From positions 62,001 to 126,000 of the forward strand of contig CAIYLG010000062.1 in assembly GCA_903927025.1 (NCBI GenBank): DNA of 64,000 bases, given 5' to 3'. This DNA comes from an uncultured Armatimonadota bacterium (GTDB lineage Bacteria; Armatimonadota; Fimbriimonadia; Fimbriimonadales; Fimbriimonadaceae). The stretch's first letter is position 1. Every line of letters begins with the position of its first letter. Below, in pieces: positions 11,597 to 24,725 of this stretch. A program made the translations under genes and the position numbers. The notes below the pieces were generated by a model. It was not told where the DNA came from. It saw nothing but the letters and a program-made list of their open reading frames with translations, and made no database searches.

Positions 11597-12853
11597 TTAG
11601 ACGATGTGCCGCATGATCTCAGCCAAATCTGCAGTTGAATTCGCAAACAGACTTAGCGTCGCGGCGAAGTAGAGATAGGTAGCGACCCTTCCTGCGATTT
11701 TGATTCTGGGATTCTGACGGTATGCCAAAAGTTGCTGTTTGGACATCTTCGCCTTAAGGGCTACTCCGCCGTAGTGAATGGCTACCACTCCCAGCCCTTG
11801 GGAAATGCCGAAGAGTACAAAGTGTGTCTCTACCCCGTGCCAGAGACCAATCAGGATGAACACGGTCATGATTGCCGCGGCAATAGCATTGTTCACGGAT
11901 ACGCTTGGCCATCGGGTGCAGATTGCCTTGACCATCGGAGTAAACACCATATCTCGCATCCAAGTGGAAAGAGATATGTGCCACTTTGACCAGAATTCCT
12001 GAAAATTACGTGATCCAAATGGATTGTTGAAGTTTTCAGCCACCTGGATTCCACAGAGTGAACTCGCACCGATCGCCACATCGCACAGGCCTGAGAAGTT
12101 GCAGTACAGGAACAGCGGATAAACCAGAACCGCGACGAGCAAGTCTAATTTAGAGTGAAGATGTCCATTGCGCATGAACGCTGGGCCATAGCCAATCTCT
12201 GAAAGGATAGTCGAGAAGAGCAGATACTTTAGGAGGCCCCTGATCATCCTAAGAATATTGGGAAGATGCTCGATCTGGACTTCTCGGGCTCGCTTTGCGC
12301 TGTCAATGAAGAGGCCGTAGGGCGAGATCGGTCCAACAATCATCAGCGGAACGAAGAAGCTGAAAGACAGATACTGAGCGAGTGAGGGCATCTCAACCGC
12401 CTTGTTCCGCACTTCGGTAACCATGAAGCACAGTCGAAACGCAACGTAGGATATCCCGACAAAAATGAACGTGATCGACCCATTCTTTTGAGAATGAGTC
12501 AGAAATGGAATCAAGTCCCGAGCCAACAACAGACTAAAAATAGGTGATGCGTAGGCTGCCGCCCAATTCCTGTCTGACCTGTGGGCAAACGAAAGCGTGG
12601 CAAAGCTAAACAGCACCAAAGCGATATAGACCGCAAAGATTGTGCTGGCATAGATGAAGAACTTTGCCGGCCCTTCAAGCACGTGGTGCTTGTATCCCAT
12701 CGAGAAGGCAAGCATTAGGCTCGAAAATACACTGACGCCTGCAAGAATCGGCCACTTGGGACCGGATGCTGACTTCAGAAGTGGACGAGCCAATAAAGGG
12801 AACAGACAGAATGCCAGCAACAGATAGCCGAATTCGTCAATCTTAACTAGCAA
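11597..12853 (-). CDS. MBOAT-family membrane O-acyltransferase (DltB/AlgI-like)
   Basis: A 418-residue polytopic protein. The MBOAT signature blocks are NFSGLCDVAIG, EFWSKWHISLSTWMRDMVF and IGLWHGVETHF with the catalytic His339. In DltB and AlgI these proteins take an acyl group from a cytoplasmic donor through the membrane to the outside. The start is TTG at 12853, one base after the stop of the 39-residue microprotein gene, so translation is probably coupled. The DltD/AlgJ-like SGNH gene is immediately upstream in the same unit. The C-terminus (ADLAEIMRHIV) has no Tyr-containing shuttle motif of its own, which fits the microprotein carrying that motif. Confidence 0.9.
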   Translation of the reverse strand: MLVKIDEFGYLLLAFCLFPLLARPLLKSASGPKWPILAGVSVFSSLMLAFSMGYKHHVLEGPAKFFIYASTIFAVYIALVLFSFATLSFAHRSDRNWAAAYASPIFSLLLARDLIPFLTHSQKNGSITFIFVGISYVAFRLCFMVTEVRNKAVEMPSLAQYLSFSFFVPLMIVGPISPYGLFIDSAKRAREVQIEHLPNILRMIRGLLKYLLFSTILSEIGYGPAFMRNGHLHSKLDLLVAVLVYPLFLYCNFSGLCDVAIGASSLCGIQVAENFNNPFGSRNFQEFWSKWHISLSTWMRDMVFTPMVKAICTRWPSVSVNNAIAAAIMTVFILIGLWHGVETHFVLFGISQGLGVVAIHYGGVALKAKMSKQQLLAYRQNPRIKIAGRVATYLYFAATLSLFANSTADLAEIMRHIV

Positions 12854-12854
12854 C

Positions 12855-12974
12855 CTAAAATCCCCCGTACACGGTATCCACCATCAGCGCGTTTACCGGC
12901 ATCACCAGGATGAGCCCCAGCAGGATGACCGCGAACAGTACAAACAACATCTCCAGTGGACGCAATCGCTTCAC
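12855..12974 (-). CDS. 39-residue membrane microprotein, DltX-like acyl-shuttle candidate
   Basis: A short reading frame between the SGNH and MBOAT genes. The GTG start overlaps the SGNH stop (GTGA), and the TAG stop lies one base before the MBOAT TTG. It encodes a basic N-terminus (Lys2, Arg3, Arg5), one hydrophobic span at about residues 9-31, and a short tail. By the positive-inside rule the C-terminus faces out. The last six residues are TVYGGF, with Tyr36 four residues from the end. DltX proteins end in an F-x-Y-x-x-F-type hexapeptide whose Tyr accepts the acyl group from DltB; here Thr replaces the first Phe. Position, topology and motif all fit an acyl shuttle. No homology search was possible. 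Confidence 0.72.
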   Translation of the reverse strand: MKRLRPLEMLFVLFAVILLGLILVMPVNALMVDTVYGGF

Positions 12975-14041
12975 TTCTGCGCTCCCGGTCGGTTAGTGCC
13001 AGCAAACACCGAGTAAAGGGCGGGAATTACCTTTGCACTGTAAATCGCCGCGCCTTCCGCATTGAGGTGCAAGGGATCTTGGAAATACTTCTTCTCCGCC
13101 TCTTTCCCAGAGATTTGCCCGAATAAATCGGCCTTTGACGTGGCCACTATTGATTGGCCGGGATCCAAGACTTCCTTCGGCAGGTTCACACGAATGGGAT
13201 CACTGTCGAGGTCCCGAGACATGGGCAGATTTACCAGTAAAACCTTCGCTCCGTGGTCCTTCGCCAGCTTTAGAATCTTCGAAAACATGAGCCCAAAATA
13301 GCCACTTTTGCCAGCCGAAGTCGAATCAAAATTCAACCGGTCGCTACCAGGCGAAAAAAGATATCTCTCCGCGGAATCTTCAAATGTGATTGACAAGGGA
13401 TCAATTTTCCCGTATCGGTGGACAACATCTTCATCGAGGCCATCTGTCGTCTTTTCGTGCTTGGACAGCACGTTGGGTCGAATCGCATTGAGAAACTGAC
13501 GAGGACCGTTTAGAACCATCTCTCCGTAAATCGCGGCTTTGTGCCCAAGCGACATGCCCTCATAAAGCTCCGGAACTTCACCGAATCGCAAAATATCGCA
13601 AATGCTCTCATCGGGTGAGTTTTGAGCCTGAAACCGCTCTGGCATGGCAAGTACGATCAGCTTAGTGTGATGAGTTTGCAGATAGTCGCGGATTTCTAAA
13701 TAGTGGACGTCGGGCTTGGAACGCAGAAGATAAAGATATCGAATCTTCGCCTCACGGCCTAATTTCTGGGTGAAATATCGATTAACGACGACCGGCCTTA
13801 ATGCGGTACACATCGTTGAAGATCCCACAAGAATTGCGTCGGAATCGTCTTGATTGTCGAAGATCGTGGACTCAATACTTCCGCCATCCCCTCGAACGGC
13901 GGGCAGTCCCATATACACCTGTTGCCTAGACGGAAGAGCAACTAAGCTCAATACGACCGGAAGTAGGAGCAGGGAAGCAGAAACAACTGTATATAAACGG
14001 AGTCGAATAACATCTGACTTCGCAGGCAACGAGCTTTCCAT
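12971..14041 (-). CDS. Membrane-anchored SGNH-fold acyltransferase partner (DltD/AlgJ-like)
   Basis: A 356-residue protein with one N-terminal membrane anchor (about residues 18-37) and a large extracytoplasmic domain. A serine motif ILVGSSTM (Ser74/75) and a C-terminal DPLHLNAEG block (Asp322 and His325, the SGNH DxxH pair) mark an SGNH/GDSL-type hydrolase or transferase. In DltD and AlgJ/AlgX such proteins receive an acyl group and pass it to the polymer. It is the first gene of a three-gene leftward unit (SGNH, microprotein, MBOAT) and is divergent from fkbH across a 347-base gap. The acceptor polymer is inferred to be a surface polysaccharide from the neighbouring sugar genes. Confidence 0.8.
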   Translation of the reverse strand: MESSLPAKSDVIRLRLYTVVSASLLLLPVVLSLVALPSRQQVYMGLPAVRGDGGSIESTIFDNQDDSDAILVGSSTMCTALRPVVVNRYFTQKLGREAKIRYLYLLRSKPDVHYLEIRDYLQTHHTKLIVLAMPERFQAQNSPDESICDILRFGEVPELYEGMSLGHKAAIYGEMVLNGPRQFLNAIRPNVLSKHEKTTDGLDEDVVHRYGKIDPLSITFEDSAERYLFSPGSDRLNFDSTSAGKSGYFGLMFSKILKLAKDHGAKVLLVNLPMSRDLDSDPIRVNLPKEVLDPGQSIVATSKADLFGQISGKEAEKKYFQDPLHLNAEGAAIYSAKVIPALYSVFAGTNRPGAQK

Positions 14042-14388
14042 CGTGGTGGCAATTTCTGAACAAATATGTGGCTATTTTCGATGGATCACTTCTTTCCATC
14101 GTTACAGCCAGTCCTAAGCAATCGACTGTCTTTGGCTTCGTTCAGCACGCTGATCTTCACCAGAAGCAGACTTTTTTGACCCGCATCCTGCCGACCGGCA
14201 GAACCACTTTAGGCACATAGCCATTCGGTTCTAGCGTACGACATAATAGGGTCAGCCTGGGTCCCCGTGCTTCCAGCGTTGGTGCATTGGATCCGCTTGC
14301 TTTGTCTTATACCCTTTTGCGCGAGCGCGATTGGAGGGATACCGACTTTAGCTGGGTTCTTTAGACGACTGGATGATTTTGGAACAAT
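14042..14388. promoter_or_regulatory. Divergent intergenic region between the SGNH/MBOAT unit and fkbH
   Basis: A 347-base non-coding gap between two divergent units, so it should hold promoters for both. I see a CATAAT hexamer at 14242-14247 that could be a rightward -10 element, though without a convincing -35. A short palindrome, CTGCCG-AC-CGGCAG, lies at 14188-14201. No small gene or RNA was recognised. Assignment as a shared control region rests on gene orientation. Confidence 0.4.
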
Positions 14389-16248
14389 ATGGCTGAAACT
14401 GATTTGAGCTCACTCAAGGACCTGTTGCGGGCTCGGGATACGCGGTTCGCAACTGAGTTGGTCCGATTAACGAAAGGCTGCTCGGATTTCCAAGATGCGT
14501 TGACTCTCCATACACTCAGACGCCGAGGAACCTCAATCGGGGTTATTTCTGCTTCCGCCACAAAAATAAAGTTGGCGATTATTGGAGCAGCAACGCTTAG
14601 ACCACTTGCCGACCTTATTGAGCACTTCACCACTGTCCTCGTCGGGGCCGAGGTTGACCTCTGGGTGGGTGAATTTGACAACTACACCTTCGAGATCATG
14701 GAGCCTGAAAGTGAGCTTTTTGAGTTCAAGCCCGACTATGTGGTTCTACTGCCCAGTGAGCAAAGATGTCGCTTTGGCGGTCACGAGGAAGCCTCAACCG
14801 AAGCGCAGGTCGCCGAGACAGAGCGGGCGGCAGACGGAATCCTTGAGCTCGCCAAGACGATCCGAAATACATGTGGGGCAGAGGTGCTGGTGTCCAACTT
14901 TAGACTTCCTGCCTCTTACGACCCCGGTCCTGCTCGATGGGCATCCCTGAAATCTGACTACGCGTTTCGAAAGATGGTGAATACGCAGCTCGGCTTAAGA
15001 GCGCCGCAATACGTGCATCTTGTTGACGTTGAGTTTCTGGCCAACCGAATGGGAACGGTCAACACGATTGATGACCGCACGTGGTTCGAAAGCAAGCAGC
15101 CCTACTCTTCACCACTTCTCGTCGAAGTTGCCAAGGAAGTGTCCCTGGTCCTAAAGGGACTGAGAACGGCGCCCAAGAAAGTTATCGTTCTTGATCTGGA
15201 CAATACGGTCTGGGGCGGAATCATTGGAGATGACGGTCTTGAGGGCATTGAGATCGGCACGACCTCACCGAGAGGTGAGGCATTCCGTGCGTTCCAGCAG
15301 TATCTGCTTGGCCTAACGCGCAGAGGCGTCCTTTTGGCGGTCTGTAGCAAAAATGATCACGAGAAGGCCGTTGAGCCGTTCCTGAGACACCCCGAAATGG
15401 TGTTGCGGCTGGAGAATATTGTCAACTTCAAGGCCAACTGGGATCCCAAATCAGAGAACATCCGGCAGATTGCCACTGAGTTAAATCTCGGATTGGACAG
15501 CTTCGTCTTCATGGACGACAACCCCGCGGAAATTGAAATCGTTCGCCAATTTGTGCCGGAAGTCACTTGCATCTGGGCCGGTGACGACCCCAGCCTCTTC
15601 ATCCCGATGCTTCAGAATTCACGCCTTTTTGAATATCGGAATCTAACTGCCGAGGACATGAAGCGGGTTGTCCAGTATCAACAAGAGGCAAAGCGACAGG
15701 AACTCGCCAGCACGGCAACGGACATGGGGTCGTATCTCAGCTCACTAGAGATGGTGGCAAAGGTGAGCAACTTCAACTCGCTTGACACTCCGCGAATTTC
15801 TCAGCTGATCAACAAGTCCAATCAGTTCAATCTCACAACGATTCGCCGCTCCGAAGCAGAAGTCCAAGCCGTATCAACTGATCCAGATCACTCAGCATTT
15901 ACCATTCGCCTGTCAGATCGCTTTGGCGATCATGGCCTCATCGCGGTCGTTGTCCTACGAAGAGAAGACACCTCCTGCATCGTGGACACTTGGCTCATGA
16001 GCTGTAGGGTCCTTAAAAGGCAGGTTGAGGAATTGACGCTCAATATCATTAATAAAAGGGCTGAGACACTCGGCTGTGATTCTGTCGTAGGCATCTATCG
16101 TCCAACTGCAAAAAATGGAATGGTTAGGGACCTATACCCAAAGCTTGGCTTCGCATTGATGGCTGAATCAGATGAAGAGGTACGCTTCAACCTCAAAGTG
16201 AGCGAATTCAAGCCGTTTGAGACAAAAATCAGCGCAGGTGACTTTTAG
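14389..16248 (+). CDS. FkbH-family HAD protein (glyceryl-carrier-protein loading enzyme)
   Basis: A 619-residue protein with the FkbH three-part layout: an N-terminal SGNH-like region, a central HAD domain and a C-terminal GNAT-like part. The HAD motif is VIVLDLDNTVWGG (Asp269, Asp271), followed by GIIGDDG and later FMDDNPAE. The C-terminal block is LSDRFGDHGLIAVV..WLMSCRVLKRQVE. Characterised FkbH-type proteins take the glyceryl group from 1,3-bisphosphoglycerate, dephosphorylate it and load it on a carrier protein. A carrier-protein gene starts one base after the stop, fitting that role. In glycan clusters FkbH-like proteins may load related small acyl groups. The substrate here is therefore likely, not proven, to be glyceryl. 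Confidence 0.9.
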   Translation: MAETDLSSLKDLLRARDTRFATELVRLTKGCSDFQDALTLHTLRRRGTSIGVISASATKIKLAIIGAATLRPLADLIEHFTTVLVGAEVDLWVGEFDNYTFEIMEPESELFEFKPDYVVLLPSEQRCRFGGHEEASTEAQVAETERAADGILELAKTIRNTCGAEVLVSNFRLPASYDPGPARWASLKSDYAFRKMVNTQLGLRAPQYVHLVDVEFLANRMGTVNTIDDRTWFESKQPYSSPLLVEVAKEVSLVLKGLRTAPKKVIVLDLDNTVWGGIIGDDGLEGIEIGTTSPRGEAFRAFQQYLLGLTRRGVLLAVCSKNDHEKAVEPFLRHPEMVLRLENIVNFKANWDPKSENIRQIATELNLGLDSFVFMDDNPAEIEIVRQFVPEVTCIWAGDDPSLFIPMLQNSRLFEYRNLTAEDMKRVVQYQQEAKRQELASTATDMGSYLSSLEMVAKVSNFNSLDTPRISQLINKSNQFNLTTIRRSEAEVQAVSTDPDHSAFTIRLSDRFGDHGLIAVVVLRREDTSCIVDTWLMSCRVLKRQVEELTLNIINKRAETLGCDSVVGIYRPTAKNGMVRDLYPKLGFALMAESDEEVRFNLKVSEFKPFETKISAGDF

Positions 16249-16249
16249 T

Positions 16250-16486
16250 TTGGAACAATCAGAAATTCTTGCAAGGCTACAGAAAGTTTTCGATAACGTC
16301 TTCCTTGACGAAGTTGTGGTCACTCCTGAACTTACGGCAAAGGATGTTGAAGAGTGGGACTCTCTTATTCACGTATCCCTCGTCTTAGCGATTGAAAATG
16401 AATTCAAAATTCGCTTCCGGGTTGGCGAAGTTGAATCCGCTAAGAATGTTGGAGACTTAGCAAAACTCATTCACGCGAAATTTTAA
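16250..16486 (+). CDS. Acyl carrier protein partner of FkbH
   Basis: A 78-residue carrier protein with the 4'-phosphopantetheine attachment motif EEWDSLIHVSLV (Ser38) and an acidic helix III region (VESAKNVGDLAKLI). The TTG at 16250 is preferred because AGGTGA lies at 16236-16241 and it gives a normal ACP length. A second TTG at 16217 would overlap fkbH by 32 bases. It sits one base after the fkbH stop, so the two are surely co-translated. The protein should carry the acyl thioester made by FkbH in the cytoplasm and present it to the MBOAT protein, as DltC does for DltB, or to an unidentified enzyme. Confidence 0.88.
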   Translation: MEQSEILARLQKVFDNVFLDEVVVTPELTAKDVEEWDSLIHVSLVLAIENEFKIRFRVGEVESAKNVGDLAKLIHAKF

Positions 16487-16718: not shown

Positions 16719-17702
16719 ATGTCTGAAAAGCTCTTAACTCCTGAAATCGGCAGCGTTCTCGTCACCGGAGGCGCTGGGTTCATCGGCAGCACCGTGGTAG
16801 ATATGTTGCTGTCCCAAGGCTACAAAACGACGGTTCTAGACAACTTCTCCAACGGCAGAAGAGAATTCGTTAGCCATCACAGCGATGACCCAAATTTCAA
16901 ACTGGTCGAAGGGGACATCCTAGACGAGAGCCTGGTCAAGGAACTCGTGCAGGATGCGGATCTTGTTTGGCATCTTGCTGCGAATACAGACATCATTGGT
17001 GGCCACGATCAGCCCCGTCGAGATCTTCGCGACTGTGTGATGGGAACGTTCAACGTCGTAGACGCTATTCGGGTGACCGGCCCTCGTCCGCTTCTGTTCT
17101 CTTCGACTGGCGCCGTCTACGGACAGCTCTGTGTGGATATATCCGTGAATGAGGGATCCGGCCCGTTGTTGCCCGTCTCCACCTATGCCGCAGGCAAAAT
17201 CGGCAGCGAGGCATTCATATCCGCTTTCTGCAACCTCTACGGAATTCGAGCCTGGATCTTCCGCTTCGGCAACGTTATCGGCTCACGGATGACTCACGGA
17301 GTGATTTATGACTTCGTACACAGGCTAAAGCAGGACCCAAGCAGGTTGCTGATTCGTGGTGACGGTCGGCAGGAAAAGAACTACTTCCTGGTGGAAGAGT
17401 GCATCGATGGAATGGGATATGCGTTCAAGAACATCGCCATGACCGACGACCAGCCCTGCGATATTTTCAATCTTGGCACCTCATCGGTAACCCGAGTCGT
17501 CGAACTAGCCCAGATCGTTAAAGAGGAGATGGGCCTACCAGACGCCGAACTCGTTATTGAGGGCACAAAGAAGGCCTGGCCGGGTGATCAGCCCCGCGTC
17601 CACATCGACGTAGATAAAATGACTAACCTTGGCTGGAAGGCAAAGCTCTCTTCGGACCAAGCCGTTCGGATTGCTGTGAAGAGACTTCTCACCGAGGTTT
17701 AA
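16719..17702 (+). CDS. NAD-dependent sugar-nucleotide epimerase/dehydratase
   Basis: A 327-residue extended SDR. The N-terminal NAD-binding motif is VTGGAGFIGSTVVDML. The catalytic Ser/Thr and Tyr-x3-Lys are seen in LFSSTGAVYG and STYAAGKIGSEAF. The closest groups are UDP-glucose/UDP-glucuronate 4-epimerases and related nucleotide-sugar dehydratases. The exact substrate cannot be read from sequence. The nucleotidyltransferase gene starts three bases after the stop, so both probably make one activated sugar for the surface polysaccharide. It differs from the GalE homologue at 21782-22765, so the island has two such enzymes. Confidence 0.88.
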   Translation: MSEKLLTPEIGSVLVTGGAGFIGSTVVDMLLSQGYKTTVLDNFSNGRREFVSHHSDDPNFKLVEGDILDESLVKELVQDADLVWHLAANTDIIGGHDQPRRDLRDCVMGTFNVVDAIRVTGPRPLLFSSTGAVYGQLCVDISVNEGSGPLLPVSTYAAGKIGSEAFISAFCNLYGIRAWIFRFGNVIGSRMTHGVIYDFVHRLKQDPSRLLIRGDGRQEKNYFLVEECIDGMGYAFKNIAMTDDQPCDIFNLGTSSVTRVVELAQIVKEEMGLPDAELVIEGTKKAWPGDQPRVHIDVDKMTNLGWKAKLSSDQAVRIAVKRLLTEV

Positions 17703-17705
17703 CCC

Positions 17706-18410
17706 ATGCAGATCGTGATCCTTGCCGGAGGACTCGGAACCCGCTTAAAAGAGATTTCTGAAGGGCGACCTAAAGCCATGATGATCGTCGGCGGGCGCCC
17801 CTTCCTTGAATACCAATTTGAGCAGCTCGCCAGCTTCGGGCTAACCCGCATCCTGATGCTCATCGGCTATGGGGGAGAGATGATCCGGGAGTACGTCGGA
17901 TCTGGCTCAAAATGGGGTGTTGAAGTGGATTACGTCCAGGAAGATCCCTCCAGCCTCTTGGGAACAGGTGGGGCGCTGATCAACGCGCTTCCTAAACTGG
18001 AAGCTGAGTTCATGACTCTCTACGGCGACTCCTACCTTCCTGTCGATTTTCGCGACGTGGTGTCGCACTATCAAAGCCGCGACGTTCCGTACCTGATGAC
18101 GGTGTACAAGAACGATGGGCTTTGGGATGCGAGCAACACCCGCATCGATGGGGACTGGGTGACCTACTACAACAAGAAGGCACTTCCTGGTGATGCTGAC
18201 TATATCGACTACGGCATGTCTGTGATTCGCCGAGAAGTTATGGAGAGGTACGCCTCAGAACCCCTTCCCTTAGATATGGCCCGAATTCAGAGTGACCTCG
18301 TCGCCTCCAAGGAGATGGGGGCGCTGGAAGTCACTGAGCGCTTCTATGAGATTGGAAAACCTTCCGCGCTTCTTGAGTTCGAAGAGTGGATTCTGAAGCA
18401 GGGTTCTTAG
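17706..18410 (+). CDS. Sugar-1-phosphate nucleotidyltransferase (HddC/RmlA-like)
   Basis: A 234-residue single-domain nucleotidyltransferase. The nucleotide-binding signature is VILAGGLGTRLKEISEGRPKAMM, followed by GGRPFLEYQFEQL, LGTGGALINALP and LYGDSYL, where the Asp binds metal. The pattern resembles D-glycero-D-manno-heptose-1-phosphate guanylyltransferases and related enzymes. It would join a sugar phosphate to an NTP in the cytoplasm. It is coupled to the epimerase upstream. With the isomerase, kinase and transaldolase on the other strand it could complete a nucleotide-activated heptose pathway, but sugar and nucleotide specificity are unproven. Confidence 0.85.
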   Translation: MQIVILAGGLGTRLKEISEGRPKAMMIVGGRPFLEYQFEQLASFGLTRILMLIGYGGEMIREYVGSGSKWGVEVDYVQEDPSSLLGTGGALINALPKLEAEFMTLYGDSYLPVDFRDVVSHYQSRDVPYLMTVYKNDGLWDASNTRIDGDWVTYYNKKALPGDADYIDYGMSVIRREVMERYASEPLPLDMARIQSDLVASKEMGALEVTERFYEIGKPSALLEFEEWILKQGS

Positions 18411-18419
18411 AAACCTGCC

Positions 18420-19496
18420 CTAGCGAAGCTTCTCCATAAACTCAACGGCTTCCGCCATCCGCTTCCGAAATCCAAAATTCTCAGTGGCTCGAACCCTACC
18501 CGCCTCAGCGATACGGTTGCGCTCATCATCGTGAGCCAAGTAGTACTTGATCTTGTCTCGGCACTCTTCTGTGGAAGCGAAGAAGGCGGCTTCCTTGTCT
18601 GGCTCAAAAAGGCTCATCTGCTTTTCCGTGGCCTCACCCAAAAACAGAGTGCCGCACGCGGGAACTTCAAACAGCCGAGCCGTGTACCGGTCTAGGTTCG
18701 AGTGTGAGACGAACCCGAGCGAAATCTTTGAATTGGATACGGTTTGACGATATCCGTCGTCAGAGAGCGATCCGTGCAAGAGATGCTTCCTATCGGCAAA
18801 TAGCGGTGTTCGATCCCATCTTGCCCCGTAAATGTCCACTGGGACTCCAAGTTTGCCGGTCAGTTCATCGAGAACGCTCACTCTCTGATCAAGAGCGGTG
18901 CCCACGAACATGACGTCATGAGTCATGCTCGGATCTCCGTTGGTCTCGGGATAAAACAGATCCTCCGGATAGCCGGTCAAAAAGACCTGAACATTCTTGG
19001 CCCCACGTTTTGAATATTCTTTGACGTCACTCTCTCGCTTGACGAGGTGAGCGTCGTAAGCAGGCATAGCATCGAAGAAGCGACGCCATCCGTAGTCCGC
19101 GAACCTTCTGGGACCGAAGGGATTGTCATCTTGGTAGGAGATGATTGGAACCCCAGGGAGCTTCTTTTTCAGCGCGACAAGCGTTCGCTTCCCCACCATC
19201 CGCGGCCACTCCAGCCAAATGACGTCCGGTTTGCCCGCCTCGGCAGCATCCGTCAGAAGCTGGTGCATCTGCGCTTCATGAGAAGCCAGGAGCCTTTCGT
19301 AAATCGCCGCAGGCATAAACCGCCTGGTGTAGGCAAGATAACGAGACTCAGACTGGGCAACCGTCGAGGAGACACGAATGATCTGGTGTCCAAGTTGCTC
19401 TAGGGCGGTGAGTCGCTGGACTCCCGATTGCCAAGGTTTCTCAATGACGCCAGAAAATAGGATCTTCAAGTTATTGCCCACCGGTGGTTTCCACAC
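18420..19496 (-). CDS. CgeB-like glycosyltransferase
   Basis: About 358 residues, GT-B-like. The N-terminal strand is KILFSGVIEKPW. A mid-region DVIWLEWPRMVG follows, and the C-terminal part (LFEVPACGTLFLGEATE..LF.PDKEAAFF) matches the glycosyl-transferase 1_2 / CgeB group. The last 60 residues (CRDKIKYYLAHDDERNRIAEAGRVRA) are the usual terminal helix region. The start could be GTG 19496, GTG 19481 or TTG 19469. A strong leftward terminator ends at 19499, just before the gene, leaving almost no room for a private promoter. It probably adds a sugar to the surface polysaccharide repeat. Confidence 0.75.
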   Translation of the reverse strand: MWKPPVGNNLKILFSGVIEKPWQSGVQRLTALEQLGHQIIRVSSTVAQSESRYLAYTRRFMPAAIYERLLASHEAQMHQLLTDAAEAGKPDVIWLEWPRMVGKRTLVALKKKLPGVPIISYQDDNPFGPRRFADYGWRRFFDAMPAYDAHLVKRESDVKEYSKRGAKNVQVFLTGYPEDLFYPETNGDPSMTHDVMFVGTALDQRVSVLDELTGKLGVPVDIYGARWDRTPLFADRKHLLHGSLSDDGYRQTVSNSKISLGFVSHSNLDRYTARLFEVPACGTLFLGEATEKQMSLFEPDKEAAFFASTEECRDKIKYYLAHDDERNRIAEAGRVRATENFGFRKRMAEAVEFMEKLR

Positions 19497-19498
19497 CT

Positions 19499-19544
19499 TA
19501 AAAACGATTCACCCCAGCACGATAGATCAACGGTGCTGGGGTGA
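19499..19544 (-). terminator. Rho-independent terminator after the transaldolase gene
   Basis: A perfect 12-bp stem (19509-19520 with 19533-19544, CACCCCAGCAC type) with a 12-base loop. On the minus strand it is followed by a T-run (A-run at 19500-19504 on the plus strand). It lies 17 bases beyond the transaldolase stop and only a few bases before the glycosyltransferase start. Confidence 0.88.
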
Positions 19545-19560
19545 TGAGTCAAGCGACGGT

Positions 19561-20274
19561 TTAGAGTTTGAAGCCAGCTTTCTGGCCGTCCGCGTAGAAC
19601 ATCTTAACGGTGTCCAGCGAGTAATCCGTAAGGTCCTTGCCTACTAGCGACAGCTTTTTGAGCGTGTCGTGAGTGACGGTGATGACATGACATCCGATGG
19701 CATCTGCTTGGAAGATATTGAGAAGCTCTCTTGGGCTCGCCCAGATCAACTCCAGGTTAGGCACCAGCTTCAGCATCTCTACGGAGGCACACATCAGCGG
19801 CAGTGGATCCACTCCGGTATCAGCGATTCGTCCCGCAAACACTGAGACATAGCTTGCTGGGGTGCCTTCGAGACATGGGACGATATCTCGAACCTGCGCA
19901 AGTGTCATTAACGCAGTCACGTTCAGCTTGAACCCTTCAGAGGCAAGCTTCTTGACGAGGGGCCCTGCATCTTCACCTTTGGTATTTGTGATTGGAAGCT
20001 TGACGTAAACGTTGGAGCCCCAAGAGCCGATCTTTCTAGCCTGTCGCTCCATTTCATCAAAGTCGTCCGCGAAGACTTCGAATGAGAATGGCTTGTCTGG
20101 AATCTCTGCAACCAAGTCTCGACAGAATGCTTCGTAGTCAGGAATTCCAACCTTGGCCATCAGGGTTGGGTTCGTGGTGAAACCCTTGATCGTCGGGTTT
20201 TGGTTGAGTTCGAGGATGCCTGCTTTTTCAGCACCATCTGCGAAAATCTTAATCTTGAGGTCTGCAATGCTCAT
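19561..20274 (-). CDS. Transaldolase (short, fructose-6-phosphate-aldolase-like class)
   Basis: A 237-residue (beta/alpha)8 enzyme of the small transaldolase class. Seen are NPTIKGFTTNPTLMAKVG, VYVKLPITNTKGED with the presumed Schiff-base Lys, and NVTALMTLAQV. Transaldolase moves a dihydroxyacetone unit between sugar phosphates, making or using sedoheptulose 7-phosphate. It is embedded in a leftward sugar operon directly after a GmhA-like isomerase whose substrate is sedoheptulose 7-phosphate, which suggests a dedicated supply of that precursor. A terminator follows. It could also serve the central pentose phosphate pathway. Confidence 0.87.
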   Translation of the reverse strand: MSIADLKIKIFADGAEKAGILELNQNPTIKGFTTNPTLMAKVGIPDYEAFCRDLVAEIPDKPFSFEVFADDFDEMERQARKIGSWGSNVYVKLPITNTKGEDAGPLVKKLASEGFKLNVTALMTLAQVRDIVPCLEGTPASYVSVFAGRIADTGVDPLPLMCASVEMLKLVPNLELIWASPRELLNIFQADAIGCHVITVTHDTLKKLSLVGKDLTDYSLDTVKMFYADGQKAGFKL

Positions 20275-20303
20275 ATTGAATTTCTCGAGCTGTCGGCTCC
20301 GAA

Positions 20304-20900
20304 CTACTTAATCGACTCCCACTTGGCGACATTCCCCTGAAGCGCTGGGTGCGAAACGAGGAGGTGCCATACGACTGCCTGGAATGATTCTGTGTGCGGA
20401 GTCACAGAGCCGCTGTTGACAGTTGGAACGATCACGCAAGCGTCGGCAACCTGGGCACAGTAGCCGCCATCTCGACCAACCACGCCGATGATCTTTGCGC
20501 CCACTTCTTTAGCAACCTGAAGCGCCCGTACGAGGTTTGGACTAACGTTGTGCTCGAGGGAGCCGCCACCTACGGAGAAGACAAGAAGCATATCCTTGCT
20601 GGATAGCTTGCTTCCCTTGAGGTATGAAGCGAAGACGGTTTCCCACCCTTCGTCATTCGTGCGAGCAGTCAACTCGGAGACATTGTCAGTGGGAGCATAA
20701 GATTCAATTCCGACAATCTTTCTAAAGTCGTTAACGGCGTGACCTGCATGGCCAGCTCCACCACCAACTCCAAGGATAAACAAACGTCCCCCGGAGGCTT
20801 TCAGGTCGACTAGCAACTCGACCATCTTGTCGATCGTTGCGACGTTCAGCTGCTCAAGAATCTCGATGGATTCCTTAATATGGCTCTCAGTAAAACTCAT
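20304..20900 (-). CDS. SIS-domain sugar isomerase, phosphoheptose-isomerase (GmhA)-like
   Basis: A 198-residue single SIS domain. Key blocks are RLFILGVGGGAGHAGHAVNDFRKI, a Ser-rich phosphate-binding loop region (LLVFSVGGGSLEHN), KIIGVVGRDGG and TPHTESFQAVVWHLL. GmhA converts sedoheptulose 7-phosphate to D-glycero-D-manno-heptose 7-phosphate in the cytoplasm. I chose ATG 20900 because GAGGGGAGG lies about 14 bases upstream; an in-frame TTG at 20927 would put that motif inside the gene. It lies between the nucleotidyltransferase and transaldolase genes on the same strand. A different keto-aldo sugar phosphate is possible. Confidence 0.82.
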   Translation of the reverse strand: MSFTESHIKESIEILEQLNVATIDKMVELLVDLKASGGRLFILGVGGGAGHAGHAVNDFRKIVGIESYAPTDNVSELTARTNDEGWETVFASYLKGSKLSSKDMLLVFSVGGGSLEHNVSPNLVRALQVAKEVGAKIIGVVGRDGGYCAQVADACVIVPTVNSGSVTPHTESFQAVVWHLLVSHPALQGNVAKWESIK

Positions 20901-21032
20901 TTTGGTCGAAAGACCTCCCCTCTTCAAAAATGGTCGAATCGCTCAAATTGGCGGTTCAGACTTTTACAAAACTGTTGCCCCAAAAAGGTACCGTCTCGAC
21001 CAAAGATTACACTTCCGAGTGTACCAGCACCA

Positions 21033-21773
21033 TCATTCTGCTAATCCAATTCTCTTCGCGAACTCTTGTGCACCACTATAAGCTTCTAAAGTGCCGATAT
21101 CTAGAATTTCGCCCTCTGCATAATAGGCCTTCATCTGACCAACTAACCGGGGAATCACATCCCTGCCGAGGTCAAACGGCAGTCCTAGTTCTGATTGGAT
21201 TTCTCCAATTTGGCGGAGGATGGCAGGATCCATAGCGTAGATTCCTGCCGCAGCTAAATCACTTTGCGGATGAGCGGGCTTTTCAATAAAACTTGTCACC
21301 GTTCCATCGTCCGCAACAGTGGCGATTCCCCTTCTCCACGGCTCATCTTGATGGGCCACAGTGAGCGTAAACGGGAAGTTATGAGTGGCATGGAAGTCCA
21401 GCACGGACGACACTTTCTGACTCACAAGCAGGTCGCCGTAAATACTGACGATGACATCGGCATCCGAAGCCCATTCGGCACACGCAGCCAGGGTCCCCCC
21501 GCTCCCTAAAAGTTCCGGTTCGAACAGAAGGTCGACCTTAGGAAGTTTTCCTGATCTGCCGGACACATAATCCTCCACAACTTCGTGAAGCCAGTGTGTA
21601 TTCACGAGCACCTCAGAGATCCCGGCCTCGGTGAGGTTGTCGAACCAGTAGTCCATCAACGGGCGCCCCAAAATTGGCAATAGACATTTTGGGACGGTAT
21701 CTGTGATCGGCCGGATTCGATTACCGAGTCCAGCGCACAGGAGCACTGCTTTTGCCCTAACGGATTGGCCCAT
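21033..21773 (-). CDS. Sugar nucleotidyltransferase (NTP_transferase)
   Basis: A 246-residue nucleotidyltransferase starting at ATG 21773, eight bases after the galE-like stop. An upstream in-frame start would overlap galE. Signature blocks are AVLLCAGLGNRIRPITDTVPKCLLP, GRPLMDYWFDNL, LLGSGGTLAACAEW and SIYGDLLV, the last with the metal-binding Asp. It belongs with glucose-1-phosphate thymidylyl-/mannose-1-phosphate guanylyl-type enzymes. It sits in the hddA-like, galE-like, this gene, gmhA-like order, so it probably activates the sugar handled by that operon. The plus-strand cluster holds another enzyme of the same kind. Confidence 0.85.
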   Translation of the reverse strand: MGQSVRAKAVLLCAGLGNRIRPITDTVPKCLLPILGRPLMDYWFDNLTEAGISEVLVNTHWLHEVVEDYVSGRSGKLPKVDLLFEPELLGSGGTLAACAEWASDADVIVSIYGDLLVSQKVSSVLDFHATHNFPFTLTVAHQDEPWRRGIATVADDGTVTSFIEKPAHPQSDLAAAGIYAMDPAILRQIGEIQSELGLPFDLGRDVIPRLVGQMKAYYAEGEILDIGTLEAYSGAQEFAKRIGLAE

Positions 21774-21781
21774 AACCGCCG

Positions 21782-22765
21782 CTAAACCGTGGCATATCCA
21801 TTCGGATGGGCCAATCTCCACTTGTAGGCAGATTCGACCATATCATCCAGAGATGAGATCTTAGGGTTCCAACCGAGCATAGAACTCGCTCGGTTGTAGC
21901 TTGCAATCAGCGTGGGTGGGTCCCCTGGCCGTCGGTCTGCCATAACGACTTTAAAGTCTCTCGAAGTGACCCGCTTCACTGAATTGATGACTTCTAAGAT
22001 GGAGTAGCCCTTGCCGTTCCCAAGGCTAAACGCCTTGCCGTTTGCAGAATCCATGAGTTTGAGTCCAAGGATATGAGCTTCCGCGATATCCGATACATGA
22101 ATGTAGTCTCGGACGCACGTGCCGTCTGGAGTTTCATAGTCACTTCCGAAAACGGACAGGGATTCTCGGCGTCCCAACGCCGCGTCCAAAGCAATCGGAA
22201 TGAGGTGATTCTCAAAAATCCGGTCCTCGCCGCGAGATTCCGTTGCTCCACAGGCATTGAAGTACCGAAACGATACGTGACGGAGTCCATGCGCGTCTGC
22301 GTACCATTTGAGCAGGCGCTCAAACACTAGTTTGGACTCTCCGTAGGCATTAACCGGCTCCAAAGGATCGTCCTCGAGGATCGGAATATTTCTCGGAGTC
22401 CCATACACTGCGGCAGTCGAAGAGAAAATAATGTTTTGAACACCGGAAAGCCGCATCGCTTCAACAAGGTTGATGCTACCGGTGACGTTCTTGTGAAACG
22501 CGCGCCCTGGGTTCTCCATCGAAATGGCAATGAGAGCTTCCGCCGCGAAGTGGAATACGGCATCAACCGGATTGGATCTCATATAGTCAATCAGCCACTC
22601 GCGATCTAGGATCGACCCTTCAGTGAATTCGATCCCAGGATAAGGGCCCCCTGACTTGCTGTTGTCAAAGTTATCGACACCAAGAACCTTGTGCCCTTCA
22701 GACACAAGCCGCTCCGACACAACTGAGCCGATGTATCCGGCCGCTCCAGTCACAAGAATCTTCAT
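21782..22765 (-). CDS. galE: UDP-glucose 4-epimerase (GalE-like)
   Basis: A 327-residue extended SDR of normal GalE length. It has VTGAAGYIGSVVSERL at the N-terminus, FHFAAEALIAISMENP, IFSSTAAVYGTPRNIPI and AYGESKLVFE with the catalytic Tyr-x3-Lys. A FRYFNACGA block and DYIHVSDIAEAHILGL are typical of GalE. It interconverts UDP-glucose and UDP-galactose, or the N-acetyl forms, in the cytoplasm. The gene is 21 bases downstream of the GHMP kinase gene and 8 bases upstream of a nucleotidyltransferase gene, within one leftward operon. The symbol is by family resemblance. Confidence 0.92.
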   Translation of the reverse strand: MKILVTGAAGYIGSVVSERLVSEGHKVLGVDNFDNSKSGGPYPGIEFTEGSILDREWLIDYMRSNPVDAVFHFAAEALIAISMENPGRAFHKNVTGSINLVEAMRLSGVQNIIFSSTAAVYGTPRNIPILEDDPLEPVNAYGESKLVFERLLKWYADAHGLRHVSFRYFNACGATESRGEDRIFENHLIPIALDAALGRRESLSVFGSDYETPDGTCVRDYIHVSDIAEAHILGLKLMDSANGKAFSLGNGKGYSILEVINSVKRVTSRDFKVVMADRRPGDPPTLIASYNRASSMLGWNPKISSLDDMVESAYKWRLAHPNGYATV

Positions 22766-22786
22766 CTCATTCGCAATCGTCGCACA

Positions 22787-23770
22787 CTAGTGCGGAATCA
22801 GCACCTTGGTGCCTTCGAAGTCAAACCGAAATCTTACTTCTTCAAGCCCGGCTTCCTTCATGGCTGCCCGCAAACGGCTCTTTTCTTCACAGTAGAACAT
22901 AAGGAATCCGCCGCCACCAGCACCGATAAGCTTTCCACCAGCCGCTCCGTTCTTCATTCCAAGTTCGTACCAGGAATCGATGTCTGGATTGCTCATGCCA
23001 CCGGACCGCTTGCGCTTGTGCTCCCAATGCACATTCATCAGGCGTGCAAATTCGTCCAGGTCTCCCCTTTCAAGGGCGGCCTTGTTTTGGTAGCCCAGTT
23101 CCTTGATGAAGTGCAGGTTATCCAGCATGGAAGAATCCTTCGACTTGCTCTTTTCATTCTGGTCCTTCAGAATTGCGGACGCGGATCTTGAAGTTTTTGT
23201 AAAGAACAGAAGCAGATTGTCTTCCAGCGTGAACAGAGTTTCCTGCGAGACGTTGAGAGGATAGGCCTTTACAGTGTCGTCGGGGTTGAACTCGAAGCAA
23301 GTCAGGCCGCCGAACGCAGCTATGTACTGATCCTGCTTTCCGATGGGCTCCCCGAGTCGGTCAATCTCGACATGACAGGCTTGCTCGGCCAGTTCCGCGG
23401 TGTGGAGAATCGTCTTACGGTGTGTGTGAATCGACTTCAGGAGCGCCGTGGTAAAGCTTCCAGATGAACCCATGCCGGTGCCGGCTGGAATATCAGCGGA
23501 CGAAGCAATCTCCACCCAAGGTGGCGTACATGGGAGCATCGTCAGACACTCACGAACGATCGGATGCTGAATTTCTTGGACCGAAGTGACACACTCAAAC
23601 TTGGAGTACTTCACCGTAATCTCTTCACGAAACGGCTGGCTCAACGTGATGTAGATGTACTTGTCCACGGCCGCAGCGATTAAAAAACCGCCGTATTCAC
23701 GATAGTAGGATGGAAGGTCGGTGCCGCCGCCTCCCAATGTAATTCTTAATGGGCTTCGAGTGATGATCAC
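22787..23770 (-). CDS. GHMP-family sugar kinase, D-glycero-D-manno-heptose 7-phosphate kinase (HddA)-like
   Basis: A 327-residue GHMP kinase. It has IITRSPLRITLGGGGTDLPSYY at the N-terminus, the ATP loop PAGTGMGSSGSFTTALL and the C-terminal GAAGGKLIGAGGGGFLMFY. This pattern is typical of HddA-type kinases, which make D-glycero-alpha-D-manno-heptose 1,7-bisphosphate. Fucokinase/mannokinase relatives share the motifs. It is the first gene of a five-gene leftward unit with galE-like, nucleotidyltransferase, gmhA-like and transaldolase genes. A GmhB-type bisphosphate phosphatase, needed next in the heptose route, is not seen in the window. Confidence 0.83.
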   Translation of the reverse strand: MIITRSPLRITLGGGGTDLPSYYREYGGFLIAAAVDKYIYITLSQPFREEITVKYSKFECVTSVQEIQHPIVRECLTMLPCTPPWVEIASSADIPAGTGMGSSGSFTTALLKSIHTHRKTILHTAELAEQACHVEIDRLGEPIGKQDQYIAAFGGLTCFEFNPDDTVKAYPLNVSQETLFTLEDNLLLFFTKTSRSASAILKDQNEKSKSKDSSMLDNLHFIKELGYQNKAALERGDLDEFARLMNVHWEHKRKRSGGMSNPDIDSWYELGMKNGAAGGKLIGAGGGGFLMFYCEEKSRLRAAMKEAGLEEVRFRFDFEGTKVLIPH

Positions 23771-23870
23771 AGATTTAGTCCGAATTCAAATTATACTAAC
23801 TCTGAATCCCTTCTCCCCAAGGAGATGGGTTCAATGGGGACTCCGTTCAGACACTAAGTAGAGGAAGACC

Positions 23871-23891
23871 TGTTGCAGTTTGACTGCAACA
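23871..23891 (-). terminator. Terminator-like hairpin after the GT2 gene
   Basis: A perfect 9-bp stem with a 3-base loop (TGTTGCAGT / ACTGCAACA), seven bases beyond the stop of the leftward GT2 gene. There is no strong T-run, so it may be a weak terminator or an mRNA 3'-end stabiliser. Confidence 0.5.
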
Positions 23892-23897
23892 TATCCA

Positions 23898-24725
23898 TCA
23901 AACTCCCTTCTTCTTTTCTTGAACTTTAAACACGATCATGGTTTCGTACATCGCAATGAGTCTCGCGTAGGTCAGGCCGGCCCGACCATCCAAGAATCCT
24001 CCTTTGAGGACATATAGGATTAGGAACTTAAGCTGCGGCCGAAAAGGCATTTTGTAGTACAGCTTTTTCATGTGCATGCGCTTGTCTTGCATCGATCGCC
24101 CAAAGAACAGCTCCTTCCAGGAAAAGGGAGTGTCATCACCAGTCTGCTGCATCAATATTTCAGCTTCAGTGCTACTGTAAAGGTTGTGTCTTTCAAACCA
24201 TTGTGACAAGCCTTTACTGAACGGGAAGTGATCAAGGTAGCCGGGCAATACGCCGATTGGGCCATCTGGCATCGGAATGGGGTGAACTTTGCGACCGAAG
24301 GCCATCTTCTTGTGGAGAAAGAATCTTTGATAATAGGGGGTCGATTGAGTGTGCTTCAACCAGGTGCCCATAAAGAAATCTCTGCGGCGAACGTTGTAAG
24401 AGACTTCTGGCCCCGGATTCTCAACGACCTTCTTCATGGCCTCGAGGAGACTGGGTGTGATGCGCTCGTCCGCGTCAATGTAGAAAACCCAATCGTACTT
24501 ATAGGGCAGGTTGCGCAAAGCCCAGTTTTGGTGGTCTCCCCAGTGGTCCAGCTTGCGGGTGGCAACATTTGCACCTGCTTTTTTTGCTAGCTCGACCGTC
24601 CCATCATCCGATTCTGAGTCTAGAACGTGAATATCGTCAGTGAACGAGACAGACTCCAGGCATCCTGGCATATTGTTCTCTTCGTTCTTGGTGAGGATAA
24701 GGACCGAAATTGGCAGCTTGGTCAT
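23898..24725 (-). CDS. Family 2 glycosyltransferase (WaaE/KdtX-like)
   Basis: A 275-residue GT-A enzyme. It opens with ISVLILTKNEENNMPGCLES, has DIHVLDSESDDGT and LDHWGDHQNWALR, and a DxD motif in VFYIDADERITP. The C-terminal region has RRRDFFMGTWLKH..YYQRFF and KGLSQWFERHNLYS, matching the group that includes the LPS-core glucosyltransferase WaaE. The C-terminal hydrophobic segment (LKFLILYVLKGGFLDG) may attach it to the membrane. It is 50 bases downstream of the initiating sugar transferase gene, so the two probably act in one repeat-unit pathway on the cytoplasmic face. Confidence 0.87.
   Translation of the reverse strand: MTKLPISVLILTKNEENNMPGCLESVSFTDDIHVLDSESDDGTVELAKKAGANVATRKLDHWGDHQNWALRNLPYKYDWVFYIDADERITPSLLEAMKKVVENPGPEVSYNVRRRDFFMGTWLKHTQSTPYYQRFFLHKKMAFGRKVHPIPMPDGPIGVLPGYLDHFPFSKGLSQWFERHNLYSSTEAEILMQQTGDDTPFSWKELFFGRSMQDKRMHMKKLYYKMPFRPQLKFLILYVLKGGFLDGRAGLTYARLIAMYETMIVFKVQEKKKGV

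Follow-up and report, generated by a model that had tools for sequence, protein, structure and literature searches.

Can the acyl loader FkbH take the place of DltA and feed an acylation machine of the cell envelope? This question is raised by five neighbouring genes in a 64,000-nucleotide stretch of contig CAIYLG010000062.1 from an uncultured Armatimonadota bacterium (hereafter the window), where genes for an SGNH-like protein, a microprotein and a DltB-like MBOAT acyltransferase on the minus strand are divergent from genes for FkbH and an acyl carrier protein (ACP) on the plus strand. This set of genes and its divergent layout, proposed in a preliminary description of the DNA, were borne out, all five open reading frames being found at the positions collected in Table 1. 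Judged from the sequence, the locus probably encodes an extracytoplasmic acylation system which follows the logic of the Dlt pathway with a different acyl donor. The combination had been put forward as one that matches no described system, and indeed no description of FkbH joined to an MBOAT envelope system was found in the literature searched, in which papers mentioning both FkbH and MBOAT concern aeruginosin-type peptides, with the two at separate steps.

In the proposed route, FkbH would take glyceryl from 1,3-bisphosphoglycerate and load it onto the carrier's phosphopantetheine arm, and the glyceryl-carrier would dock at the inner face of the MBOAT. With its conserved His, the MBOAT would transfer the acyl group to the microprotein, onto a Tyr close to the outward-facing C-terminus. 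From there it would reach the Ser of the SGNH protein, itself anchored in the membrane, which would finally esterify a hydroxyl of an extracytoplasmic glycan. This order of transfers (MBOAT, microprotein, SGNH protein) would be the same as that expected for Dlt (DltA-DltB-DltC-DltD-DltX), with which the locus shares an MBOAT nearest to DltB, a carrier, a separate microprotein ending in YxxF and an SGNH-like protein. It differs from Dlt in having FkbH rather than the adenylating DltA as loader, an MBOAT under the DltB threshold, an SGNH protein not recognisable as DltD and, as expected from the loader, another acyl group.

Loader, carrier and the group transferred

The window FkbH matches TIGR01686 with 312 bits (cut-off 147) and the PDB entry 3slr with E=4e-56, and is composed of an FkbH_N domain (PF21211), an HAD domain with D269/D271 and a C-terminal domain. 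Residues D269, D271, S320-K321-N322 and C539 (the latter encoded at 16003-16005) are invariant across 31 FkbH proteins. In the FkbH tree, 7 of the 8 MBOAT-linked proteins fall within one group of 14 (support 99/99), and polyketide-linked FkbH lie outside this group. The carrier, with its DSL serine at Ser38 (16361-16363), matches 2lml, 'Putative acyl carrier protein' (E=7e-16), and scores 20.6 bits against the PF00550 PP-binding cut-off of 20.8. Since FkbH of polyketide pathways loads glyceryl from 1,3-bisphosphoglycerate (PMC7489565), the window FkbH would by analogy load the same group on its carrier. The pair resembles the FkbH/ACP modules of tetronate and methoxymalonyl polyketide pathways in the succession of FkbH and a stand-alone carrier and in the presumed glyceryl-carrier product; however, glyceryl enters polyketide chemistry in those modules, whereas the partners here are membrane and exported transferases.

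By the same analogy, glyceryl would be the transferred group, although a modified C3 acid is possible. We consider it rather unlikely, if overlapping with the reading preferred here, that the carrier feeds the MBOAT after the FkbH product has been oxidised, methylated or otherwise altered on it. FkbH is known to start methoxymalonyl-type pathways (PMC7489565), and FkbH/ACP has a methyltransferase beside it in Tistrella and a VOC-family protein in Sinorhizobium meliloti, Rhodobacteraceae SC52 and the Bacillota genome G434, but the annotated genes between 9.5 and 24.7 kb of the window include no dehydrogenase pair, no methyltransferase of the methoxymalonyl-type pathway and no VOC protein.

That FkbH stands in place of DltA, as had been supposed, agrees with the whole genome, in which the best match to DltA (TIGR01734) scores 50 bits (cut-off 560) and no such gene lies near the locus. 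A true Dlt system, in which D-alanine would be loaded on the carrier by some other enzyme, would account for the DltB-like MBOAT and the DltX-like microprotein, as well as for the SGNH-microprotein-MBOAT order shared with a Klebsiella electrica plasmid locus that has a DltD-annotated gene, but is highly improbable, given that over-threshold DltA is missing from the genome, the MBOAT is far under the DltB cut-off (TIGR04091, 168 bits against 375) and the carrier adjoins FkbH and matches DltC weakly. Because both DltA and DltB scores stay under their family thresholds, the system was rejected as Dlt itself.

Linkage of FkbH/ACP with MBOAT genes

Among 291 genomes of the phylum, over-threshold FkbH is present in 18 and a DltB-model match in 69. 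Three of the 18 FkbH genomes (the source genome, G089 and G151) carry an MBOAT gene within 10 kb of FkbH, whereas about 0.064 linked cases would arise by chance, as estimated from genome sizes and the number of MBOATs (Poisson p 4e-5), and the three cases are a lower bound due to short contigs. A separate microprotein accompanies the MBOAT in all three. In G089, FkbH, ACP, MBOAT, microprotein and SGNH-like genes follow one another on a single strand within 5 kb. The G151 cluster, joined across two contigs whose ends are identical over 141 bp, reads on one strand as FkbH, ACP, a 721-residue open reading frame, a 538-residue membrane-type open reading frame, MBOAT, microprotein and SGNH-like gene.

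Outside the phylum, FkbH, ACP, MBOAT and an SGNH-like gene are adjacent on S. meliloti pSymB, in Rhodobacteraceae SC52 and on Tistrella pTM1, with Proteobacteria sampled through plasmids only, and again in the Bacillota genomes G292 (a Lachnospiraceae metagenome-assembled genome) and G434, which are 2 of the 10 over-threshold FkbH genomes of the Bacillota sample. The MBOATs of all these loci end in a fused Y-x-x-F. The linkage of FkbH with MBOAT is not due to chance, and such clusters recur in unrelated lineages.

Microprotein, MBOAT and SGNH-like protein

In DltX and in fused MBOATs, the Tyr of an acyl-shuttle motif FXYXXF carries the acyl group (PMC12148441). The window microprotein ends in TVYGGF (12858-12875; Tyr36 at 12867-12869), a DltX-type motif with Tyr and last Phe retained, so that the shuttle Tyr characteristic of MBOAT-SGNH systems is found here on a separate microprotein. 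Its basic N-terminus ahead of one hydrophobic stretch would place this Tyr outside. When the window microprotein was aligned with those of G089, G151, G251, a Leptolinea plasmid, the K. electrica plasmid and Enterococcus DltX, the Tyr and Phe of YxxF were the only invariant positions among the seven, which is not an independent test, since the set was partly chosen by YxxF-type endings. Independent of this selection, it is the only one ending in YxxF among 476 open reading frames of 30-60 residues in the window. No database match was obtained for it. PatA/PatB and other MBOAT-SGNH systems likewise combine an MBOAT/SGNH pair with an acyl-Tyr shuttle motif, but use acetyl-CoA, lack a carrier and have the motif fused to the MBOAT (PMC12148441). 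Carrier protein and DltX-like microprotein are stated to be absent from MBOAT-SGNH systems other than Dlt (PMC12148441), a rule that the loci described here appear to contradict.

The window MBOAT matches PF03062 (73 bits, E=3e-20), and its sole significant PDB match is DltB (8jem, 6bug). The catalytic-type His339 (WHG, 11837-11839) is kept in 19 of 20 aligned MBOATs, and the protein ends in AEIMRHIV with no C-terminal YxxF of its own; a second MBOAT of the genome, encoded elsewhere, is PatA-like and ends in FIYFIF. In the MBOAT tree, the window, G089 and Tistrella proteins, all three FkbH-linked, are grouped (support 92/93) and placed weakly beside the DltB group (79/86, long branches). A single clade for all MBOATs with a separate microprotein was rejected by tree test (p 0.006), again with long branches. 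A scan of genome contigs with the window MBOAT alone recovered two relatives, both distant Bacillota.

The docking site of the carrier DltC on DltB is the horizontal helix HC, with contacts at Met302, Val305, Ile306 and Met309 (PMC11035591). The window MBOAT aligns gap-free across the DltB segment holding HC and, by this alignment, keeps a putative docking segment that resembles this helix, with most contact residues different. Where DltB has HC, a GG[NS]R segment is present in most fused MBOATs for which no carrier is known, but absent from 10 of 12 carrier-linked MBOATs including that of the window (Fisher p about 3e-5, uncorrected for phylogeny), a contrast noticed post hoc and drawn with many 'no known carrier' loci too short to exclude a carrier nearby.

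The third component was assigned as SGNH-like because of its motifs, its gene position and its alignment with partner proteins. It has an N-terminal hydrophobic segment, block I as GSS (Ser75, 13817-13819) and block V DxxH as DPLH (His325, 13067-13069), and G73 and H325 are the only residues that it shares with all the partner SGNH-like proteins in the alignment. Profile-profile comparison with the Bacillota partners recovered block I alone (5% probability), a single-sequence AlphaFold run gave no usable model (mean predicted local distance difference test score 37.5), and neither the 291 phylum genomes nor plasmids yielded a relative. An MBOAT with catalytic His is found adjacent to an exported SGNH protein, the former being secure and the latter recognised by its motifs only.

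Several observations weigh against a joint system. The SGNH-like protein has no match in Pfam or NCBIfam and none significant in PDB, including any to the DltD family; Thr replaces the first Phe of FXYXXF in the window microprotein; and the MBOATs of G151 and G434, both FkbH-linked, retain a GGS[RK] segment. Most FkbH/ACP pairs of the phylum have no MBOAT nearby, and those found beside other kinds of genes, such as the ketosynthase-like gene adjoining FkbH/ACP in G012, would make the pair a donor module with several users. As the window genes form divergent units and not one operon, they may be coincidental neighbours. In that case the MBOAT, microprotein and SGNH protein would carry out acetyl-CoA-fed O-acetylation, as is known for PatA-type MBOATs (PMC12148441), and FkbH/ACP would supply glyceryl or a processed group to a cytoplasmic sugar acyltransferase or another acyltransferase of the adjacent glycan cluster; elsewhere, FkbH/ACP with no MBOAT is indeed found beside acyltransferase-3-, WcbI-type- and GNAT-type-looking genes. 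However, we regard two independent neighbours as unlikely, and slightly more so than an altered acyl group, in view of the one-strand clusters of G089 and G151, the FkbH-ACP-MBOAT-SGNH sets of two other phyla, the excess of linked cases in the phylum, the missing GG[NS]R segment and reports that MBOAT/SGNH pathways using acyl-CoA have no separate microprotein (PMC12148441). A joint FkbH-fed system is hence preferred. Of what the preliminary description had claimed, the Dlt-like logic and the linkage are supported by the clusters of G089, G151, Alphaproteobacteria and Bacillota and by the DltX-motif microprotein, whereas the glyceryl group and the polysaccharide acceptor keep a conditional standing; co-occurrence within 10 kb, which it had named as a check and whose rarity in related genomes it would have counted against the linkage, exceeds chance but is confined to a minority of the FkbH/ACP pairs, so that this objection is only partly answered.

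Gene layout, surroundings and related loci

Table 1. Features of the locus, with positions in the window
Feature	Positions	Strand	Basis
MBOAT acyltransferase, DltB-like, 418 residues	11597-12853	-	PF03062, TIGR04091, PDB DltB
DltX-like membrane microprotein, 39 residues	12855-12974	-	C-terminal acyl-shuttle-like motif TVYGGF
SGNH-like exported transferase (putative DltD/PatB role), 356 residues	12971-14041	-	motifs and gene order
Divergent intergenic region between the two units, 347 bp	14042-14388		
FkbH (HAD-IIIC) acyl loader, 619 residues	14389-16248	+	TIGR01686, PF21211, 3slr
Acyl carrier protein, 78 residues, DSL motif	16250-16486	+	PF00550 (just under cut-off), NF002148, 2lml

The minus-strand genes are tightly packed, the microprotein gene starting with a GTG that overlaps the stop codon of the SGNH gene and ending 1 bp from the TTG of the MBOAT gene. 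The carrier gene begins 1 bp past the FkbH stop, with an ambiguous start (TTG at 16217 or 16250). Promoter-like matches between 11400 and 16800, including the intergenic region, were not above chance. Positions 16719-24725 hold a sugar-nucleotide cluster resembling heptose-type pathways, with genes for a SIS-domain isomerase, a GHMP kinase, nucleotidyltransferases, sugar epimerases, a transaldolase and glycosyltransferases. The acceptor suggested by these neighbouring genes is a surface glycan, perhaps one made by this very cluster (16.7-24.7 kb).

If so, the locus would offer a possible route from a glycolytic intermediate to ester decoration on surface glycans. Gellan is a bacterial exopolysaccharide with glyceryl esters, and systems of this kind could account for them. 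There is about an even chance that a widespread class of modification of envelope glycans, as yet undescribed, exists, in which glyceryl esters would be formed via a glyceryl-carrier by a modular Dlt machine, with FkbH or an adenylating ligase as loader and the shuttle Tyr separate or fused to the MBOAT.

A five-part Dlt-like layout with an AMP-binding ligase replacing FkbH is present in the same phylum in G251 (L091:455-4891), where an acetate-CoA-ligase-like AMP-binding enzyme, a carrier, an SGNH-like protein, an MBOAT and a microprotein ending in FVYARF are encoded. In G119 (L094:6653-12920), FkbH/ACP lies between two genes which by sequence appearance read as acyltransferase-3 membrane proteins, which suggests that glyceryl-carrier may also feed that family. 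The K. electrica plasmid locus (L154:4649-8701), flanked by insertion sequences in a Gram-negative host devoid of teichoic acids, comprises a DltD-annotated gene, a 40-residue microprotein ending in FEYQKF, an MBOAT, an AMP-binding protein and a carrier; it thus shares gene order and carrier with the window, but its loader is AMP-binding where that of the window is FkbH. On a Leptolinea plasmid (L151:5361-6960, Chloroflexota), a 47-residue microprotein ending in WIYQGF directly precedes an MBOAT lacking the fused motif. VOC-family proteins recur near the FkbH/ACP/MBOAT clusters (L139:7240-7629, L106:11350-11778, L159:5843-6310). The S. meliloti cluster opens the system to experimental test in a common laboratory organism; in that cluster, the pSymB neighbour of the MBOAT gene (L107:2386-3615, L159:8267-9496), annotated as 'TonB-dependent receptor', has SGNH-type blocks GGST and DPGH and occupies the SGNH position, and this annotation is probably wrong.

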